From the IMG/VR virus record IMGVR_UViG_3300021962_000023, positions 1 through 64,000 of that record: a stretch of 64,000 nucleotides of DNA; one strand, given 5' to 3'. The translations under genes were made by a program, and so were the position numbers. Position 1 is the stretch's first letter. The number at the start of each line of letters is the position of its first letter. The notes under the pieces are model-generated. The model ran no database searches. It worked only from the letters and a program-made list of their open reading frames with translations, and was not told the origin of the DNA. Shown here piece by piece: positions 48-30,725 of this stretch. This stretch comes from a virus.

Positions 48-128
48 ATAATCTCAAGCATTCTACTCCCCGCAGTACGGAATTGTATCTTACTTAGCCC
101 ATCGTTAGCGGTATGGGTACTTGAGTTG

Positions 129-200
129 AGCAGATGATAGGAATCGAACCTACGTCTCCTACTTGGAAGGAAGGAGTAATGACCATTATACGACATCTGC
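129..200 (-). tRNA. tRNA-Gly(TCC)
   Basis: Acceptor GCAGATG pairs with CATCTGC. The T loop is TTCGATT and the anticodon loop CTTCCAA. The anticodon stem has one T-T mismatch. No CCA is encoded. Confidence 0.9.
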
Positions 201-256
201 ATTTAGTGGATGAACAACATCTATCGTTCTTTTGGCTTCCCACTAAAGCCCATTGG

Positions 257-329
257 AGCGGAAGACCAGATTCGAACTGGCGACCTATTGCTTGGCAAGC
301 AATCGCTCTACCAACTGAGCTACTTCCGC
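257..329 (-). tRNA. tRNA-Gly(GCC)
   Basis: Acceptor GCGGAAG pairs with CTTCCGC, the anticodon loop is TTGCCAA with stem ATTGC/GCAAT, and the T loop is TTCGAAT. CCA is encoded just downstream (254-256), unlike most tRNAs here. A GTGTAGG/CCTACAC hairpin (335-341 with 351-357) lies just upstream of it. Confidence 0.93.
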
Positions 330-468
330 AATTTGTGTAGGATACGCCCACCTACACCACACTTTTAGTAGTATGTTACCACACTACCACGTTTCGAGTT
401 GTTTAACGACCTACTCTAAATGTCATCCGCCAGGGTGTGCTTCACGTTAAACCCGGAGACGCTTATGG

Positions 469-542
469 TGGACCAAACAGGGCTCGAACCTGTGACCTTG
501 TCGTTATGAGCGACCTGCTCTAACCATCTGAGCTATAAGTCC
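469..542 (-). tRNA. tRNA with CAT anticodon, probably tRNA-Ile2 (lysidine type)
   Basis: Acceptor GGACTTA pairs with TTGGTCC, the discriminator is A and CCA is encoded (466-468). The anticodon loop is CTCATAA. The body (GGAC start, TAGCTCAGATGGTTAGAGCA, AAGGTC variable region) resembles bacterial tRNA-Ile2 more than elongator Met, so after C34-to-lysidine change it would read AUA codons. The Ile2 assignment is inference. The CAT anticodon is certain. Confidence 0.85.
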
Positions 543-671
543 AAATTATAGAAAGGATTCGGGTCTTTCAGGGTTACTGATGATGAATGCGGGCTTAAAG
601 TCGTACTACTAACCCTTTTTCAAACCTATACCCCATAAGTTCATCATTACAGCTTCACTACCTTTCTATTG

Positions 672-744
672 TGGAGGTACAGAGATTCGAACTCTGGATT
701 CCTGCGTGCAAGGCAAGTGTGTTAGCCAACTATACCATACCCCC
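672..744 (-). tRNA. tRNA-Ala(TGC)
   Basis: Acceptor GGGGGTA pairs with TACCTCC, anticodon stem CTTGC/GCAGG encloses loop CTTGCAC, and the T loop is TTCGAAT. No CCA is encoded. Confidence 0.9.
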
Positions 745-749
745 AATCG

Positions 750-834
750 TACTCGGGGCCGGACTCGAACCGGCACGGACCTTTCGGTCCAAAGGATTTT
801 AAGTCCTTCGTGGCTACCATTACACCACCCGAGC
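750..834 (-). tRNA. tRNA-Leu(TAA)
   Basis: It has a class II variable arm (GGACC-GAAA-GGTCC). The anticodon stem AGGA/TCCT encloses a loop with TAA, and acceptor GCTCGGG pairs with CCCGAGT (G-T end pair). The Ala tRNA 3' to it is only 5 bases away. Confidence 0.92.
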
Positions 835-836
835 AT

Positions 837-1079
837 TTAATATCCTATTTCATCTTTAATCTTCCATTGGGTATCGTGTGGAATTCGTTCAATTCTTTCA
901 ACTGGAACAAACCCATCAAACCCACTTTCTTTAACATCTTCAAAATGTTCAATGGTGTCCAAATAGAAACCAAATGAATATCTGATGTATTGGAATTTAT
1001 CACCATCCCAATATGCCACATGGTTGTTTCTACTAAACCCGTTATACCAGCCTTCCTTTATTTCACTTTTTGGTATCAT
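837..1079 (-). CDS. small hypothetical protein within tRNA array
   Basis: An 80-residue soluble protein starting MIPKSEIKEG, rich in aromatic and acidic residues, with no signal peptide or membrane segment. The tRNA-Leu gene starts 3 bases past its stop and tRNA-Arg(TCT) ends about 20 bases upstream. It therefore fills the gap between tRNAs exactly, as inserted phage genes often do. The amphipathic sequence and full use of the gap support coding. I recognise no family. Confidence 0.6.
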   Translation of the reverse strand: MIPKSEIKEGWYNGFSRNNHVAYWDGDKFQYIRYSFGFYLDTIEHFEDVKESGFDGFVPVERIERIPHDTQWKIKDEIGY

Positions 1080-1099
1080 AATAACTTTTTTAATTTACG

Positions 1100-1173
<74 letters not shown>

Positions 1174-1178
1174 ATATG

Positions 1179-1252
1179 CGGTGTATACGAGATTCGAACT
1201 CGTGGTCTCTTCCGTGACAGGGAAGCATGTTAGGCCTCTACACCAATACACC
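1179..1252 (-). tRNA. tRNA-Asp(GTC)
   Basis: Acceptor GGTGTAT pairs with ATACACC, the discriminator is G as expected for Asp, and anticodon stem TTCC/GGAA encloses CTGTCAC. Confidence 0.93.
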
Positions 1253-1370
1253 AAATTTTCGGAACTTATGGATTTTCACCACCGAAATCTCTTCTCCCAA
1301 CTAGCCTCATTGAGTGAGTGTTATCGCGTAATTCGTCATTCCTAATCTAAAGTAATTAATTTTAGATTTG

Positions 1371-1443
1371 AGCCTCCAGTCGGAATCGAACCAACGACCT
1401 ACTGATTACAAATCAGTTGCTCTACCTGCTGAGCTATGGAGGC
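1371..1443 (-). tRNA. tRNA-Thr(TGT)
   Basis: Acceptor GCCTCCA pairs with TGGAGGC, anticodon stem CTGAT/ATCAG encloses TTTGTAA, and the T loop is TTCGATT. An AATCTAAA/TTTAGATT hairpin lies just 3' of it. Confidence 0.93.
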
Positions 1444-1451
1444 AATTTGTA

Positions 1452-1487
1452 GTAAGAGAGATGTCACAGCCACCTCATCTCTCTTAC
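1452..1487 (-). ncRNA. 12-bp hairpin in tRNA spacer
   Basis: GTAAGAGAGATG (1452-1463) is perfectly complementary to CATCTCTCTTAC (1476-1487) with a 12-base loop. No U-run follows on either strand, so it is not a plain terminator. A second weaker repeat (TCACATA at 1492-1498, TATGTGA at 1539-1545) fills the rest of the spacer. It is probably a processing signal or a small stable RNA between tRNAs. Confidence 0.5.
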
Positions 1488-1549
1488 CTATTCACATACT
1501 AACGGCTCAATGTGGCTTGACCGAATTAAAGTGGCTGATATGTGAGTTG

Positions 1550-1623
1550 TACTCCGTACGGGGTTCGAACCCGTAAGCTCTCCCGTGAAAGGGGAGTGTC
1601 CTAACCAATTAGACGAACGGAGC
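1550..1623 (-). tRNA. tRNA-Glu(TTC)
   Basis: Acceptor GCTCCGT pairs with ACGGAGT, anticodon stem CTCCC/GGGAG encloses CTTTCAC, and the T loop is TTCGAAC. It is the first tRNA after the promoter at 1658-1689. Confidence 0.93.
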
Positions 1624-1657
1624 GTTACTTATTAAACCATTATTTCAAAGAACATTA

Positions 1658-1689
1658 CAAATATACGAAAAGTTTTTTATAATGTCAAG
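1658..1689 (-). promoter_or_regulatory. Bacteroidetes-type promoter for the distal tRNA block
   Basis: On the minus strand the -33 TTGAC is followed after about 20 bases by CG and the -7 element TATATTTG. Transcription would start near 1651 and run into tRNA-Glu. Confidence 0.7.
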
Positions 1690-1709
1690 TACTTTTATAT
1701 ATTTATTTT

Positions 1710-2165
1710 TTACATTTTTACTAAATGGTCCGCACAATATGTTGCGATTGGACCTAAAGTTTTGTATCGTACATTATAACCCATACCTTCAACCATACCT
1801 ACCGCTTGTCTGAACACTTCATTAGATTTGTATTTAGGGTCTGGATTTAAATCCACATCAATCCAAGTTGCTTTTTGAACTCCGGCATTTCGTAATTCTT
1901 CTGCTACTTCAACTGAAAACCAAACTTCATTTAATAATCTTACTGAACGAGTGTACTCTCTCGGTGCATTCCACCGATTGTATAATACATGCGCTCCTCT
2001 ACCTGGCGTATATAATGCTACAACAATTGCATAGATAGTTTTATCTCTGAAGTTTTGTGAATCACATCCAATTAGTATTTCAACTCCTTCATGTTCATTC
2101 ATATATTCAGCGATATATGTTTCTAATTCAACTTTCGTTCCATCATGTAGTTTTCTATAAACCAT
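1710..2165 (-). CDS. DUF458/YkuK-like RNase H-fold protein
   Basis: The protein shows the DUF458 (YkuK) signature: IGCDSQNF near the N-terminus, a PGRGAHVLYNRW segment, WIDVDLNPDPKYKS, and VGMVEGMGYNVRYKTLGP near the end. This family has an RNase H-like fold with conserved Asp residues. Its substrate is not settled. I chose the ATG at 2165 (MVYRKLHD, 151 residues). An in-frame ATG at 2189 would place the first codons inside the adjacent tRNA-Leu(TAG) gene. It sits alone between tRNA blocks, which suggests a role linked to RNA metabolism, but that is inference. Confidence 0.8.
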   Translation of the reverse strand: MVYRKLHDGTKVELETYIAEYMNEHEGVEILIGCDSQNFRDKTIYAIVVALYTPGRGAHVLYNRWNAPREYTRSVRLLNEVWFSVEVAEELRNAGVQKATWIDVDLNPDPKYKSNEVFRQAVGMVEGMGYNVRYKTLGPIATYCADHLVKM

Positions 2166-2182
2166 ATCATTATTATTTATTG

Positions 2183-2257
2183 TACCCATAGAAGGACTCG
2201 AACCTTCAATTGTGTGGTGTCTAAAGCCACTGCGTATTCCAATTCCGCCATACGGGT
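2183..2257 (-). tRNA. tRNA-Leu(TAG)
   Basis: Acceptor ACCCGTA pairs with TATGGGT, and the Leu-like D arm has GCGGAATTGG. The anticodon arm GTGGC/ACCAC encloses TTTAGAC, with a C-A mismatch at the loop end. The variable region is only about six bases, short for Leu. Confidence 0.78.
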
Positions 2258-2266
2258 GTGTTTCCG

Positions 2267-2352
2267 TAGAGAGTAAGGGGTTCGAACCCTTGCGACTTTT
2301 ACATCCTACCTGTTTAGCAAACAGGCCCCTTCACCAACTTGGGTAACTCTCT
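2267..2352 (-). tRNA. tRNA-Ser(GCT)
   Basis: Acceptor AGAGAGT pairs with ACTCTCT, anticodon stem CCTGT/ACAGG encloses TTGCTAA, and there is a long class II variable arm. It is the only Ser tRNA in the window. Others may lie to the left. Confidence 0.92.
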
Positions 2353-2356
2353 ATTG

Positions 2357-2431
2357 GGGTGATTAATGGGATTCGAACCCATGCTATCAGTACCACAAAC
2401 TGACGTGCTAACCGCTAACACTATAAACACC
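2357..2431 (-). tRNA. tRNA-His(GTG)
   Basis: Anticodon stem TCAGT/ACTGA encloses TTGTGGT, acceptor GGTGTTT pairs with AATCACC with one T-T mismatch, and the T loop is TTCGAAT. Confidence 0.88.
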
Positions 2432-2499
2432 ATATTTTGTATAATATATTATTCATTTACCCCTAAATACCAGGGGTTTGTATCATATATTATACATCG

Positions 2500-2569
2500 T
2501 TGCATGTATGAGGTTCGAACTCATTTGGTCATCCTTATGAGAGATAACTCTTTTCCTCTAAGCCATGCA
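2500..2569 (-). tRNA. tRNA-Met(CAT), probably elongator
   Basis: Anticodon loop CTCATAA lies in a weak TATCT/GGATG stem. Acceptor TGCATGG pairs with ACATGCA except for a G7-A66 mismatch, and the T loop is TTCGAAC. With the initiator (5713-5783) and Ile2-like (469-542) copies assigned, this is most simply elongator Met. Confidence 0.8.
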
Positions 2570-2574
2570 GTTTG

Positions 2575-2646
2575 AGTCAAGTATTGGATTCGAACCAATG
2601 TAAAAGGTTTTGCAGACCTCCACCTAACCAACTCGGTCAACCTGAC
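2575..2646 (-). tRNA. tRNA-Cys(GCA)
   Basis: Acceptor GTCAGGT pairs with ACTTGAC, the discriminator is T as expected for Cys, D stem is ACC/GGT and anticodon stem GAGGT/ACCTT encloses CTGCAAA. Confidence 0.9.
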
Positions 2647-2653
2647 ATTATGT

Positions 2654-2723
2654 AGTCCTATTAGGATTCGAACCCAAACTTCTTCATCCGTAGTGAAGGG
2701 TGCTATCCGTTACACCATAGAAC
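2654..2723 (-). tRNA. tRNA-Arg(ACG)
   Basis: Acceptor GTTCTAT pairs with ATAGGAC, anticodon stem CTTCA/TGAAG encloses CTACGGA. A34 would need host TadA to become inosine. Confidence 0.9.
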
Positions 2724-2728
2724 CATTA

Positions 2729-2926
2729 TTACTTCCATTGAGTTTTTCGGTTGTGTTTCCAACTTTTATACTCTCTGAACTTATGTGAATAAATTGGTTT
2801 ACCATTTCCATGTCTACCCCAAATCTTTGATGGTGCACAATCATAATACCAACTACCACATCTTTTAGAACAAATGAAACAATAGTTCCATTCCATTCTC
2901 ATTCGTTTTACTCTTTCTTCTTTCAT
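2729..2926 (-). CDS. small Cys-rich, probably zinc-binding protein
   Basis: A 65-residue, strongly basic protein with a CFICSKRC motif near residue 16 followed by a single later Cys (YYDCAPSK), Trp- and Lys-rich towards the end. The CxxC pair suggests a small zinc knuckle. It exactly fills the gap between tRNA-Arg(ACG) and the tRNA-Trp block. The start could also be Met9 or Met11. Family not recognised. Confidence 0.5.
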   Translation of the reverse strand: MKEERVKRMRMEWNYCFICSKRCGSWYYDCAPSKIWGRHGNGKPIYSHKFREYKSWKHNRKTQWK

Positions 2927-2988
2927 TTTACATTAGGTTTGTTTACCTAATGCTTGTCAAATAATTGTTTCATAGTTTTACATTTTTG

Positions 2989-3059
2989 CACCCCCTAAAG
3001 GATTCGAACCTTTATCTGCGGTTTTGGAGACCGATATGCTACCATTGCACCAAAGAGAT
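2989..3059 (-). tRNA. tRNA-Trp(CCA)
   Basis: Anticodon stem CGGT/ACCG encloses CTCCAAA. Acceptor ATCTCTT pairs with AGGGGGT through several G-T wobbles, and the discriminator is G as expected for Trp. Confidence 0.9.
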
Positions 3060-3063
3060 ATTT

Positions 3064-3136
3064 AATACGAACATTGACCGGGTTGTGGGTATTCTCCACT
3101 ACTAGTCAGGTTTCAGCCACCCGGTTGATTCGTATT
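3064..3136 (-). ncRNA. structured spacer between tRNA-Ile and tRNA-Trp
   Basis: An outer stem AATACGAA/TTCGTATT (3064-3071 with 3129-3136) encloses an inner stem ACCGGGT/ACCCGGT (3077-3083 with 3119-3125). The spacer can therefore fold as one closed unit the size of a tRNA, but it is not a tRNA. It may be a small stable RNA or a processing signal. Confidence 0.5.
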
Positions 3137-3137
3137 G

Positions 3138-3211
3138 TTGGTAGTGCGGGATTCGAACCTGCCACCTTCTCGGTATCAGCGAGATGCTCTAACCAAATGA
3201 GCTAACTACCA
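3138..3211 (-). tRNA. tRNA-Ile(GAT)
   Basis: Acceptor TGGTAGT pairs fully with ACTACCA, anticodon stem TCTCG/CGAGA encloses CTGATAC. Confidence 0.93.
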
Positions 3212-3217
3212 GTGTTG

Positions 3218-3294
3218 TCGGAATGGCTGGATTCGAACCAACGAGTTCTCCACGTCCCAAACGTGGCGGGGTAACCTGACTCCCCAACATTCCG
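3218..3294 (-). tRNA. tRNA-Pro(TGG)
   Basis: Acceptor CGGAATG pairs with CATTCCG, anticodon stem CCACG/CGTGG encloses TTTGGGA. Confidence 0.93.
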
Positions 3295-3343
3295 TTATTG
3301 TACTTCCTATGTGCAGAGTTGTCTAGTACTAACCATTCTCCAG

Positions 3344-3417
3344 TGAACCCGAATGGACTCGAACCATTGACTCCCTCATTAAAAGTGAGGTGCTCTAACC
3401 GACTGAGCTACGGATTC
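3344..3417 (-). tRNA. tRNA-Lys(TTT)
   Basis: Acceptor GAATCCG pairs with CGGGTTC, anticodon stem CCTCA/TGAGG encloses CTTTTAA. Confidence 0.93.
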
Positions 3418-3480
3418 ATAATAAAGTTATTTCTGTCTAATAAAGATAATCACTTTATTGTTCAAATATCACTTTAGTTG

Positions 3481-3553
3481 TGGAGCCTCAAGGAATCGAA
3501 CCTTGTCCTCTAGTTCTTCAGACTAGCGTACGCACCAGCTATACCAAAGCTCC
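3481..3553 (-). tRNA. tRNA-Phe(GAA)
   Basis: Acceptor GGAGCTT pairs with AGGCTCC, anticodon stem CTAGT/ACTAG encloses CTGAAGA. Confidence 0.93.
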
Positions 3554-3559
3554 ATTTTG

Positions 3560-3641
3560 TGCCGCCGGTAGGACTCGAACCTACGAACTCCGAAGAGGAG
3601 GGATTTACAGTCCCTTGCAATTGCCACTATGCGACGTCGGC
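3560..3641 (-). tRNA. tRNA-Tyr(GTA)
   Basis: Anticodon stem AGGGA/TCCCT encloses CTGTAAA, with a class II variable arm (CTCC-TCTTC-GGAG). Acceptor GCCGACG pairs with CGGCGGC with one A-G mismatch. Confidence 0.92.
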
Positions 3642-3650
3642 GTTAAATGG

Positions 3651-3724
3651 TAGAAGATATAGGATTCGAACCTATGACCCTTTGGATGTAAACCAAATGC
3701 TCTAACCGACTGAGCTAATCTTCT
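3651..3724 (-). tRNA. tRNA-Val(TAC)
   Basis: Acceptor AGAAGAT pairs with ATCTTCT, anticodon stem TTTGG/CCAAA encloses TTTACAT. Confidence 0.93.
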
Positions 3725-3730
3725 ATTTTG

Positions 3731-3802
3731 AGGGAAGGGAGAATTTCGAAATCTCGACCTGATGATTAACAGTCATCCGCTCTGCCTCTGAGCTACCAAC
3801 CC
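3731..3802 (-). tRNA. tRNA-Asn(GTT), with stem mismatches
   Basis: Anticodon stem GATGA/TCATC encloses CTGTTAA. Acceptor GGGTTGG pairs with CCTTCCC only through its G-C ends, with two T-T mismatches in the middle. The T stem has T-T where G53-C61 is nearly universal. It may be decaying or need RNA repair or editing. Confidence 0.75.
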
Positions 3803-3803
3803 A

Positions 3804-3843
3804 AAACAAAAAACCCCTTAACTTTGTTATCAGTTAAGGGGTT
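3804..3843 (-). terminator. intrinsic terminator of the structured noncoding unit
   Basis: AACCCCTTAAC (3812-3822) pairs with GTTAAGGGGTT (3833-3843), an 11-bp stem. On the minus strand it is followed by TTTTGTTTT. It separates the upstream noncoding transcript from the tRNA-Asn block. Confidence 0.75.
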
Positions 3844-3875
3844 CTTCAAATATTTTCTATTTAAATCTTACATCA

Positions 3876-4034
3876 TTATCCTTTGTTGATGTCCCTTAAC
3901 TTTGTACTAATATAATCCACCTTGCCTAAATTCAAGACTGCCGGATTTGCTATCGTACTAAACATACCAATCCCTTGCCACTCATTTCTTTGAGTTGCCA
4001 GTGAACAAATTGTATGTAAGTTAAGAGTTTTCAT
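3876..4034 (-). CDS. possible small protein at the 3' end of the noncoding unit
   Basis: A 52-residue frame beginning MKTLNLHTIC, ending ISTKLRDINKG, lies between the structured RNA and the terminator. Its start follows an A/T-rich leader (ATATTAACA before ATG) like those of other genes here. A longer in-frame start at 4118 gives an improbable Phe/Tyr-rich N-terminus, so I use 4034. No family recognised. It may be noncoding. Confidence 0.4.
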   Translation of the reverse strand: MKTLNLHTICSLATQRNEWQGIGMFSTIANPAVLNLGKVDYISTKLRDINKG

Positions 4035-4119
4035 TGTTAATATATATCTAAAAAAATAATAATCGTTTGTTTTTATAAAAAAAAGTAATTCAATTTCAAA
4101 ATACGCCAACCAAGTCATG

Positions 4120-5415
4120 CTCTGGTTAATATCAGCCTCATTAAATTACTTTTACTAATTAGCTAAAAGAGGAAAGTTTTGTAGGGTGGTACTTTCCAAA
4201 GGCCTAGCTACAGCCGTTGATTACCATCAACATAATTCGTATTGTTGAGATTGTTTAAGGTAAAAATCCCCTACGGAAAACCATACTATTCTATATTTGT
4301 CATTTTTTATTTAAGTGGAACTTTTAGTTATGGAAAGTACATCCAGCTATCTACATTAAACCACTACGAAGAGCGGTGCGAAGGTTTTGCTCCCCCTCCT
4401 CCTATCTGGAATGATAGGCGTGCTACTATTACACCAATACCGCTTATATAAGGATGAGAATACTCCTTTTTGTGAACCAGCTTTCGAAAGATTATTGTTT
4501 CCTTTCTTTTCCACTTCCTTTTGAGAAGTACCAATTCAATGTGGGTTGGTAATGCCAACCAATCATAGAGTTTCAGATTACTCTCTCCCTACTTATTTTC
4601 TTCAACCCTGCCGAGCTGATTCACACTTGCGATGTTAGAAACCTTTCAAAAGAATCACAGACCTCTTGCGGAGGTATCGTGGCAGGGAACAACTCCCTAC
4701 TATGTACACACCTTTCATCTGAAACTGGTAAACACTTTTGCTCTTTTAGTTTTATAGTTTGCACCTAAAGCAAATTTGAGTTTTGGTTTGTAGATGGATT
4801 CGAGTAGTGGTTTACCACCAGCTCCGTTATCTTTTGAACAACAGAATACTTTACTACTCAATGTGATATCCCTATCACCATACTTCAAGTCATCTTCAAT
4901 AGAAGGGATTGGTGTCCCAGTCTAAAGGATAATAACAACACCACTTGTACATTATCTTATCTTGCGTCCTTTCGGATAGCTTGATTCTCAAGACCACTTT
5001 AGTATTGAATCACGCAATGATAAGGAGAGATTAAGTCCTTACTTCTCACAATAATTCTATGAGTTATTCTTATTGATGTTCCCATCTCAACTGAACAATC
5101 TACATTTGCCCAGTCATTCCGGCTCTTCGATGATAGTGTTACCCCCACCTACAAAGTCAGAATGATATCTCACTTGCCTACTTGAGCTTGCTCTCTTTTG
5201 GAGAGTAGCCGCAAACCGTCTAACCAAACGATTCACTTTATCCTACTTTCGTAGTTTATTTCACGACCATAGGCGGCCGTTGTTACACTATGTAGAACGA
5301 ATCTACTATGTGTAATCTTTTTACGAATAATTGAAATGTTGTACATTTAATGGGCGTCTTATTTACGATTAGTCTACTATCCCACAATTATTATATGTTA
5401 AAGAACTTTTGTTTT
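4120..5415 (-). ncRNA. giant structured noncoding RNA (GOLLD/ROOL-like candidate)
   Basis: About 1.3 kb has no plausible gene but many perfect inverted repeats. Examples: GTTTCAG/CTGAAAC (4570-4576 with 4719-4725) enclosing CCCTGCC/GGCAGGG (4606-4612 with 4681-4687) enclosing ACCTC/GAGGT (4661-4675); GTGATA-TCCC-TATCAC (4863-4878); CTTATC-TTGCGT with ACGCAA-GATAAG (4956-4967 with 5012-5024); GGTTGG/CCAACC (4544-4560); TTACAC/GTGTAA (5283-5315). Tandem promoters lie upstream (5423-5686) and an intrinsic terminator downstream (3804-3843). Giant ornate RNAs of the GOLLD and ROOL classes are known from phages, often beside tRNAs and sometimes containing one. Here a tRNA-like element sits at 4372-4443. 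Assignment to a known class is inference. Confidence 0.6.
4372..4443 (-). tRNA. tRNA-like element, Gly(TCC)-like, noncanonical D and T loops
   Basis: A 72-base cloverleaf can be drawn: acceptor GCGGTAT/GCACCGC, D stem GTGT/GCAC, anticodon stem CCTAT/ATAGG, T stem GGGGG/CCTTC. The D loop AATAGTA lacks the G18-G19 pair and the T loop is AGCAAAA instead of TTCRANN, so the elbow contact is lost. The anticodon loop CATTCCAG has eight bases (or six if its ends pair) and contains TTCC. It is not a normal tRNA: either a decayed tRNA-Gly or a tRNA mimic inside the structured RNA. Confidence 0.5.
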
Positions 5416-5422
5416 GTTTTAA

Positions 5423-5453
5423 CAAATATACGAAAACTTTTTCAAACTTCCTA
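5423..5453 (-). promoter_or_regulatory. promoter P-a of the structured RNA unit
   Basis: The minus strand carries -7 TATATTTG (5430-5423) preceded by CG and AGTTTT, and a weak -33 TTAGGAAG. The predicted start near 5416 opens straight into the noncoding region. Confidence 0.65.
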
Positions 5454-5529
5454 ATATTTTTAAAACTTTTTTTTTATAAATTTGAATACCGAGTATCTTT
5501 CATCACCTATAAGTTTCTCATTTACTATG

Positions 5530-5561
5530 TAAAGATAATACTTTTTTTTCAGATTTCCAAA
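5530..5561 (-). promoter_or_regulatory. promoter P-b upstream of the structured RNA unit
   Basis: On the minus strand -33 TTTGG is followed after 19-20 bases by -7 TATCTTTA. It is one of three tandem promoters within 265 bases. Confidence 0.6.
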
Positions 5562-5654
5562 TAAACTTTCAAATTTATTTTAATTTTTTTTGTTGAACAT
5601 TTTCAGCTATGTTTACTTACACCATATATGCTTCTTACTTCTGAATCAACAATA

Positions 5655-5686
5655 CAAATATACGAAACTTTTTTCATATATCCAAA
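5655..5686 (-). promoter_or_regulatory. promoter P-c, 3' of the initiator tRNA
   Basis: -33 TTTGG and -7 TATATTTG on the minus strand, 20 bases apart. The short RNA it starts can fold through GTTGA-TTCAG pairing with CTGAA-TTCAAC before the next promoter. Confidence 0.7.
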
Positions 5687-5712
5687 TAATTTTTCAATTA
5701 TTTTTTCTTTAG

Positions 5713-5783
5713 TTGCGCAGGAAGGAATCGAACCTCCATCTCTGGGTTATGAGCCCTGTATGCTACCTTTACACCACCGCACG
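5713..5783 (-). tRNA. initiator tRNA-fMet(CAT)
   Basis: The anticodon loop is CTCATAA. The acceptor CGTGCGG faces CTGCGCA, so position 1 is C and 72 is A and they cannot pair. The anticodon stem ends in three G-C pairs (GGG/CCC). The C1xA72 mismatch and the three G-C pairs are the two hallmarks of bacterial initiator tRNA, used by formyltransferase and for P-site entry. It stands apart from the main array with its own promoter. Confidence 0.88.
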
Positions 5784-7188: not shown

Positions 7189-7890
7189 CTATCGTTTCAA
7201 TGCCGTTTTAATCATAGCTTTAGCAGCTTGTTTTGCTTTTGAGGTATCATCATACTTCAATGCAGATTTAACCTTAATCATTTTACCCGTATCTGGATTC
7301 TTAACAGTCTTATCCAATATTCCCTTTGGTATTAAGGATTTCAACTTCATATCATCTTTAGGTTCTTCTTTAGGTTCTTCCTGTGGTTCAAATGTGAATA
7401 CTTTACCACCTTTCATTTTAGAATAACCTTGTGCTATTTTGCCAGGTGCAAACTTACCAATATTAAATGCTTCACCTGATTTTGAATCAATGAATGTTGC
7501 TTCACCTTTAGCTTTAGTTGCTTCATCTGCAAATAGTACACTATCTTGTTGATACTTTTTACCTAATGCCTGAATGTGTTCTTGCGATATATTAGGTACA
7601 AACAATGATTTCTCTTCGGTTGGTACTTTCATATCTTCGGGACAATCTTTATATTCAGTATTTGGTTGTCTACATTCCTGCCACATACCATCTACATGTA
7701 CAAATCCATATCCCAATTTACGCAAATCGTTTTCTAATTCTTTGTTTCTTTGTTTGTTTTCAGCAGGTGTTAATTCACCTCTACTCGCGGTTACAACTCC
7801 CCAATTTTTCATTTTTGGATTTGAAACTACATGTTGATATATTCTACCTAAAGATGCTTCATTTAAATCGTATCTACCTGCCTTTATCAT
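7189..7890 (-). CDS. DUF3293-like protein with NPxTGKMIK C-terminal tag
   Basis: Residues 1-135 match the DUF3293 pattern: VVTASRGELTPAENKQRNKELE, LRKLGYGFVHVDG, a Glu-rich central segment, SLFVPNISQEHI and YQQDSVLFAD. After a charged linker (EPKEEPKDD) comes a C-terminal block with SLIPKGILD and KNPDTGKMIKVKSALKY. The HAD protein at 37379-38224 carries a very similar block, as if it were a portable adaptor. The gene overlaps the upstream P-loop gene by 4 bases. DUF3293 has no established function; the protein lacks membrane segments. Confidence 0.65.
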   Translation of the reverse strand: MIKAGRYDLNEASLGRIYQHVVSNPKMKNWGVVTASRGELTPAENKQRNKELENDLRKLGYGFVHVDGMWQECRQPNTEYKDCPEDMKVPTEEKSLFVPNISQEHIQALGKKYQQDSVLFADEATKAKGEATFIDSKSGEAFNIGKFAPGKIAQGYSKMKGGKVFTFEPQEEPKEEPKDDMKLKSLIPKGILDKTVKNPDTGKMIKVKSALKYDDTSKAKQAAKAMIKTALKR

Positions 7891-9409: not shown

Positions 9410-9780
9410 TGGTGGAGATGGACGGAGTCGAACCGTCGTCCAAAATATGGTTTAATAAACCTCATTCACAAGCTTAGTCAGTTTTTCTTAACTGACAAAA
9501 TAGATAAAGATTTATACATTCGTTATCATTAATGTTTCCAATTCGATTTTGGGTTCAATTGGTATCCACCTGGATTCACATTCTATTTCAAGTCCCATGA
9601 TGTGTACGGGAGTGACTATGCAGCTACTGCTAAATCAGCACCAACGAATGCCATAGCATCTTCGAAGGTCATTGTAGATAATTCTACTGCGTTTATTGTT
9701 CGATAGGTGTTTAAGGATTTCCATCTAATCCTGCTTGCAATTATACTAACACTTCATACCTGTCAAAACCGGGCATCCCC
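9410..9780 (-). ncRNA. ssrA: transfer-messenger RNA (tmRNA)
   Basis: The 5' end GGGGATGCCCGG and 3' end GGACGACGGTTCGACTCC-GTCCATCTCCACCA form the tRNA-Ala-like half, with acceptor GGGGATG facing CATCTCC and CCA encoded. The resume codon GCA follows AATAAAC at 9690. The tag frame runs to a TAG at 9616-9618 and encodes 24 residues: AVELSTMTFEDA then MAFVGADLAVAA. Most tags are about 8-15 residues and end ALAA. This one is long and ends AVAA. The mRNA-like part is followed by several hairpins, as expected for tmRNA pseudoknots. No smpB gene is visible in the window. Confidence 0.9.
9616..9690 (-). other. tmRNA tag reading frame
   Basis: 24 codons plus TAG, from resume codon GCA to GCA-TAG. The last residues (LAVAA) are small and hydrophobic, as needed for ClpXP-type recognition. 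Confidence 0.75.

Positions 9781-29044: not shown

Positions 29045-30725
<1,681 letters not shown>

Follow-up and report, generated by a model that had tools for sequence, protein, structure and literature searches.

The window, a 64,000-nucleotide stretch of a 198,534-base virus contig (G000) that may itself be a fragment, carries a one-piece tmRNA gene whose 24-residue tag, AVELSTMTFEDAMAFVGADLAVAA, is not peculiar to one phage and recurs nearly unchanged in dozens of related viruses. Substitution patterns indicate that the tag core (residues 8–24) is held by purifying selection on the peptide and that residues 1–7 are freer to change. Most likely, the gene encodes an active tmRNA from a large tailed phage, probably one that infects Bacteroidota, and would rescue ribosomes with a phage-specific, degron-ended tag. 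The first-pass annotation had singled out the AVAA end of the tag; conservation across a phage clade is the stronger point.

The tmRNA gene and its phage

A single tmRNA is present in the window, at a location on which ARAGORN and Rfam RF00023 agree. The covariance match covers the full length of the model (positions 1–374) and scores 92.1 bits (E = 1.6e-34), where the gathering score is 47. A wrong or chance call is ruled out by these two independent programs and by the relatives. The main features, all on the minus strand, are the following.

9410–9780, minus strand: one-piece tmRNA gene (ssrA); ARAGORN and RF00023 (92.1 bits)
9774–9780, minus strand: 5′ acceptor strand GGGGATG, holding G3 of the G3·U70 pair; from the sequence
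9414–9420, minus strand: 3′ acceptor strand CATCTCC; from the sequence and the RF00023 match
9413–9410, minus strand: discriminator and encoded CCA; from the sequence and the RF00023 match
9421–9437, minus strand: T-arm GACGG-TTCGACT-CCGTC
9616–9690, minus strand: tag frame, with GCA resume codon, 24 codons and TAG stop; from ARAGORN, relatives and the selection test
9619–9669, minus strand: conserved tag core, residues 8–24, TFEDAMAFVGADLAVAA; from pN/pS
128–5783, minus strand: array of 23 tRNA genes near the tmRNA gene; ARAGORN
29045–30664, minus strand: phage GroEL of full length, closest to the GroEL of Bacteroidota

The tRNA-Ala-like ends, the encoded CCA and the resume codon GCA, all reported in the first-pass annotation, can be seen directly in the sequence. 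GGGGATG of the 5′ acceptor strand pairs with CATCTCC of the 3′ strand, and the pairing includes G3·U70, a mark of alanine tRNAs; a G·U pair occupies 3:70 in 61/61 relatives in which an acceptor stem was found. The tag codons run from 9690 to 9619 and the TAG stop from 9618 to 9616, corresponding to bases 91–165 of the gene according to ARAGORN, which keeps the 24 codons and gives neither a displaced resume codon nor a shorter tag. A phage tmRNA whose 24-residue tag ends in LAVAA is thus borne out, as had been proposed. This end has the hydrophobic-A-A character of SsrA-type degradation tags, and the tag is acidic, as described earlier, with four acidic and no basic residues. Upstream, CAATAAAC directly precedes GCA and provides U at −5 and A at −4, which we take to correspond to U85 and A86 of Escherichia coli. 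A second UA sits 5–4 bases ahead of a TTA codon, so that by the UA rule alone a start giving a 21-residue tag could also be read. This alternative start is weakened by the AEEL, DNEL and GEEK relatives, which do not have the second UA yet keep the upstream one.

The phage is probably a large tailed phage with a Bacteroidota host, judging from its genes. The best bacterial matches of its GroEL are nearly all from Bacteroidota, at ≤74% identity. A Shine-Dalgarno motif is found at 2% of 51 gene starts versus 6% at internal ATGs, and the bases upstream of the starts are A-rich; A-rich upstream bases with scarce Shine-Dalgarno motifs are a trait of Bacteroidota. A Bacteroidota host is thus suggested by the GroEL matches together with the lack of Shine-Dalgarno sites. 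The assignment remains provisional since the DNA polymerase is nearest (49%) to that of Microcystis phage Mel-JY01, a phage filed under Microcystis elabens, in which no tmRNA was found above cut-off. The 23 tRNA genes cover all amino acids except glutamine. The array also encloses a GOLLD RNA (4451–4861, minus strand, 297.9 bits), likewise found in relatives L018, L035, L041 and L043, and a protein encoded at 7189–7890 (minus strand) matches the S-adenosylmethionine lyases, a family of anti-restriction enzymes.

Distribution of the tag and selection on its core

Relatives were collected in several ways. A search pattern built on the RNA's 3′ end retrieved one near relative (L018), with an identical tag, and the neighbouring HAD-like gene led to six loci; ARAGORN called the tmRNA in five of them and missed the sixth (L033/L042), which is nevertheless readable. 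A degenerate tag pattern matched in 72 viral contigs. As this pattern fixes core residues, selection was measured solely on a tag-blind set, obtained by scanning with a segment of the RNA scaffold lying wholly outside the tag. The scan returned 40 tmRNA stretches, and 40/40 carry a 24-codon FEDAM-type tag, with mostly conservative variants (including WEDAM, FEDVM, FEDAL and FIGAD). With a second scaffold pattern, 51 stretches were obtained, five of them truncated at the locus edge, with either the FEDAM tag or other long tags, such as GKTNVWEAINSFGAPVSQVEFAVAA and GENPFFVLAGLGSVETAEVALAA. The statement that every FEDAM tag has 24 codons would be too strong; tags of the TDNK and NDEK types have 23 and start one codon later by the UA rule. 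At loci of the TDNK type and some of the NDNK type (L062, L069, L070, L079, L084 and similar loci), ARAGORN finds the tmRNA but gives a wrong tag, and surveys trusting its tag calls would overlook part of the family.

The tags of bacteria are of another kind. Bacteroidota tags called here have 9–10 residues, mostly with ALAA or AMAA ends, one evident miscall apart, and do not contain the FEDAM core. In the comparison with host tags proposed in the first-pass annotation, which put the length at about twice the usual, the phage tag is more than twice as long as those of its likely hosts. A host-derived tag is rejected, as a strict tag pattern had no match in the genomes of 84,980 species of bacteria and archaea. 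Among the named phages of INPHARED, tblastn with the FEDAM tag gave no match, a search of limited sensitivity with so short a query. The difference noted earlier between the LAVAA end and ALAA is mild: FEDAM tags of the tag-blind set end in AVAA, ALAA or AIAA, with AA as the last dipeptide in all, and ClpXP of Chlamydia degrades a tag ending in VAA (PMC9601184).

Selection is uneven along the tag. Over the 26 distinct tag sequences of the tag-blind set, pN/pS is 0.18 for codons 8–24 and 0.97 for codons 1–7, ratios that are descriptive given that the sequences are related. This difference points to peptide-level selection on the core. It also bears on the idea that the RNA is a decayed or decoy tmRNA, which would bind SmpB and block host trans-translation, as suggested for the TLD-only RNA of mycobacteriophage DS6A. 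An RNA of this TLD-only type from a phage is discussed in PMC4131195, together with the inhibition exerted by a similar molecule. Here the RNA is full-length, with an open frame, a resume context, a stop codon and a selected core, and the frame is kept in 40/40 tag-blind relatives, making a decoy highly improbable.

A helix over the tag end

The last codons of the tag and its stop codon lie within a helix that resembles helix 5 of known tmRNAs.

9613–9637, minus strand: H5-type helix that spans the stop and the codons just before it (outer stem UGAUU/AGUCA, inner stem GCAG/CUGC, UAG loop); from coupled synonymous changes

Third bases of alanine codons 21 and 23 are A and T in 43 of 68 distinct tmRNAs and T and A in the other 25, with no other mixture. 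In a tree built without the tag, the supported switches at these two codons occur together in 8/8 cases (p = 0.0078). The paired switches preserve a helix, either GCAG/CUGC or GCUG/CAGC, which is formed in the relatives. In the outer stem, the aspartate codon pairs with the stop codon and the bases 3′ of it: the GAC codons observed are accompanied by TAG, and GAT occurs with TAA or, through a wobble pair, with TAG. Conservation of codons 19–24 is partly due to the RNA helix instead of the peptide, and the coupled states of codons 21 and 23 could have spread by recombination of a tag cassette.

Extended to the whole tag, this would mean that RNA structure or cassette recombination mainly maintains it and that, apart from AVAA, the peptide has no particular function. 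The compensatory changes within the helix formed by the 3′ codons fit such an explanation, as does the lower variation of tag DNA than of scaffold in the alignments. Against it, in the part of the core outside the helix, synonymous sites vary and residues stay or change conservatively (pN/pS of 0.21 for codons 9–20 in the tag-blind set). A mainly structural or recombinational origin of the conservation is unlikely, and selection on the core peptide is retained as the better account.

Proposed role and comparison with known systems

In the proposed scenario, the host AlaRS would charge the phage tmRNA with alanine and the charged RNA would bind host SmpB. It would enter ribosomes that stalled on reaching the 3′ end of a broken mRNA, and translation would move to the 24-codon frame, so that stalled ribosomes are freed and recycled while mRNA is being cut during infection. 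Together with the 23 phage tRNAs, the tmRNA may render the phage less reliant on host RNAs. The added peptide would be phage-specific, made of a variable N-terminal part of seven residues and a conserved core of 17 residues that ends in AVAA. This end hints at degradation of the tagged proteins by Clp and most likely still passes the product to the host Clp protease. As a best guess, the conserved core adds contacts, with an adaptor or an unfoldase, that short host tags do not offer. Precedents exist for parts of this scheme: ClpXP of Chlamydia degrades GFP tagged with VAA and not with VDD (PMC9601184), and phage Wildcat is a known case of a highly expressed phage tmRNA (PMC7474061). The two roles named in the first-pass annotation, relief of stalled phage ribosomes and a changed fate of the tagged proteins, both remain inferences.

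The first-pass annotation had proposed looking for smpB elsewhere in the genome; none was found in the 198,534-base record, nor in the FEDAM-type records examined, up to 289 kb. Since no SmpB was found in the FEDAM clade, its tmRNA probably uses that of the host. Neither ClpP nor a Clp unfoldase was found in G000; because this 198.5-kb record may be a fragment, SmpB or Clp genes could sit outside it. Phages with other long tags are equipped differently. SmpB scores 146–167 bits in G001 and ten further records; among the SmpB-bearing phages examined, 5/5 have ClpP (184–197 bits) and 4/5 a ClpC/ClpB-like unfoldase. Loci L305–L315 and L318–L321 belong to such huge phages (154–434 kb), with other long-tag tmRNAs and SmpB. 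In the FEDAM clade, G459 has a ClpC-like unfoldase (L317), and an IGF motif can be read from the translations at the position of the ClpP-binding loop in this protein and in the unfoldase L319 of G001. Three other FEDAM-type phages (G457, G458 and G460) encode a weaker ClpP-like protein, which scores near head-maturation proteases too and could be one of them; the ClpP-like frame of G460 (G460:C1:52203-52700) contains one internal TAA. The label ‘ClpX’ for AAA_2 matches of 46–48 bits in FEDAM phages was discarded, as the one checked (L322) better fits a GvpN-like AAA ATPase.

These partners lend some weight to the possibility, appreciable though not favoured, that the long tag diverts proteins from ordinary degradation (by a phage protease or adaptor, by sequestration or by stabilization) and separates rescue from host proteolysis. 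Conservation of the core extends well past the customary C-terminal degron, and no bacterial genome searched contains it, which agrees with another fate. So do the SmpB of huge phages whose long tags are of other types, the ClpP and, usually, the ClpC-like unfoldase with its IGF loop in those examined, and the unfoldase or ClpP-like proteins of the four FEDAM-type phages. On the other hand, the C-terminal AA kept in all tag-blind FEDAM tags is like that of host degrons, G000 yielded no Clp gene and the FEDAM ClpP-like protein is ambiguous. More speculatively, the long tags of large phages may constitute a separate class of targeting signals, with a core recognized by Clp machinery that the phages encode or retune, in a tmRNA/SmpB/ClpC-like/ClpP pathway of their own, from which the lineage of the window would have kept the tmRNA and taken the rest from the host; this is a doubtful extension. 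Rescue with a degron-ended tag remains the preferred reading. A tag that is conserved in a clade, selected and unlike that of the likely host suggests that the added peptide, beyond ribosome release, matters to the phage. This bears on why phages carry tmRNAs, a question amenable to simple tag-swap constructs, and the SmpB, ClpP and ClpC-like unfoldase of the other long-tag phages point to phage-owned protein quality control.

Phage tmRNAs are already known, with ten phages listed in PMC4131195. The tmRNA of Bxz1-group mycobacteriophages (ET08, GQ303260) is, as here, phage-encoded, one-piece, located in a tRNA array and provided with a long acidic tag. The ET08 tag, ATDTDATVTDAEIEAFFAEEAAALV, has 25 residues, is unrelated by eye to AVELSTMTFEDAMAFVGADLAVAA and ends in ALV, not AA; moreover, ET08 has an actinobacterial host and a GC-rich genome, unlike the present phage. 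Bacillus phage G also has a tmRNA beside tRNA genes, but its tag, AKLNITNNELQVA, is short. Chromosomal tmRNAs of Bacteroidota (GENNYALAA, GESNYAMAA and ADDYSYAMAA tags) share the one-piece organization, the AA tag end and a similar 3′ tRNA-like end (74–94% identity over short stretches), and differ by their short tags. The huge phages of Al-Shayeb et al. 2020 (PMC7162821) are large, some are assigned to Bacteroidetes, and tRNA arrays, tmRNA and SmpB have already been reported for them; no description of the tags and no mention of Clp proteins was found in the main text. The FEDAM clade differs from these phages in having no SmpB in any record examined. No description was found in the open full-text literature of what appears to be new here, namely the clade-wide conserved long tag, its pattern of selection, and the association in phages between long tags and the pair of ClpP and a ClpC-like unfoldase.
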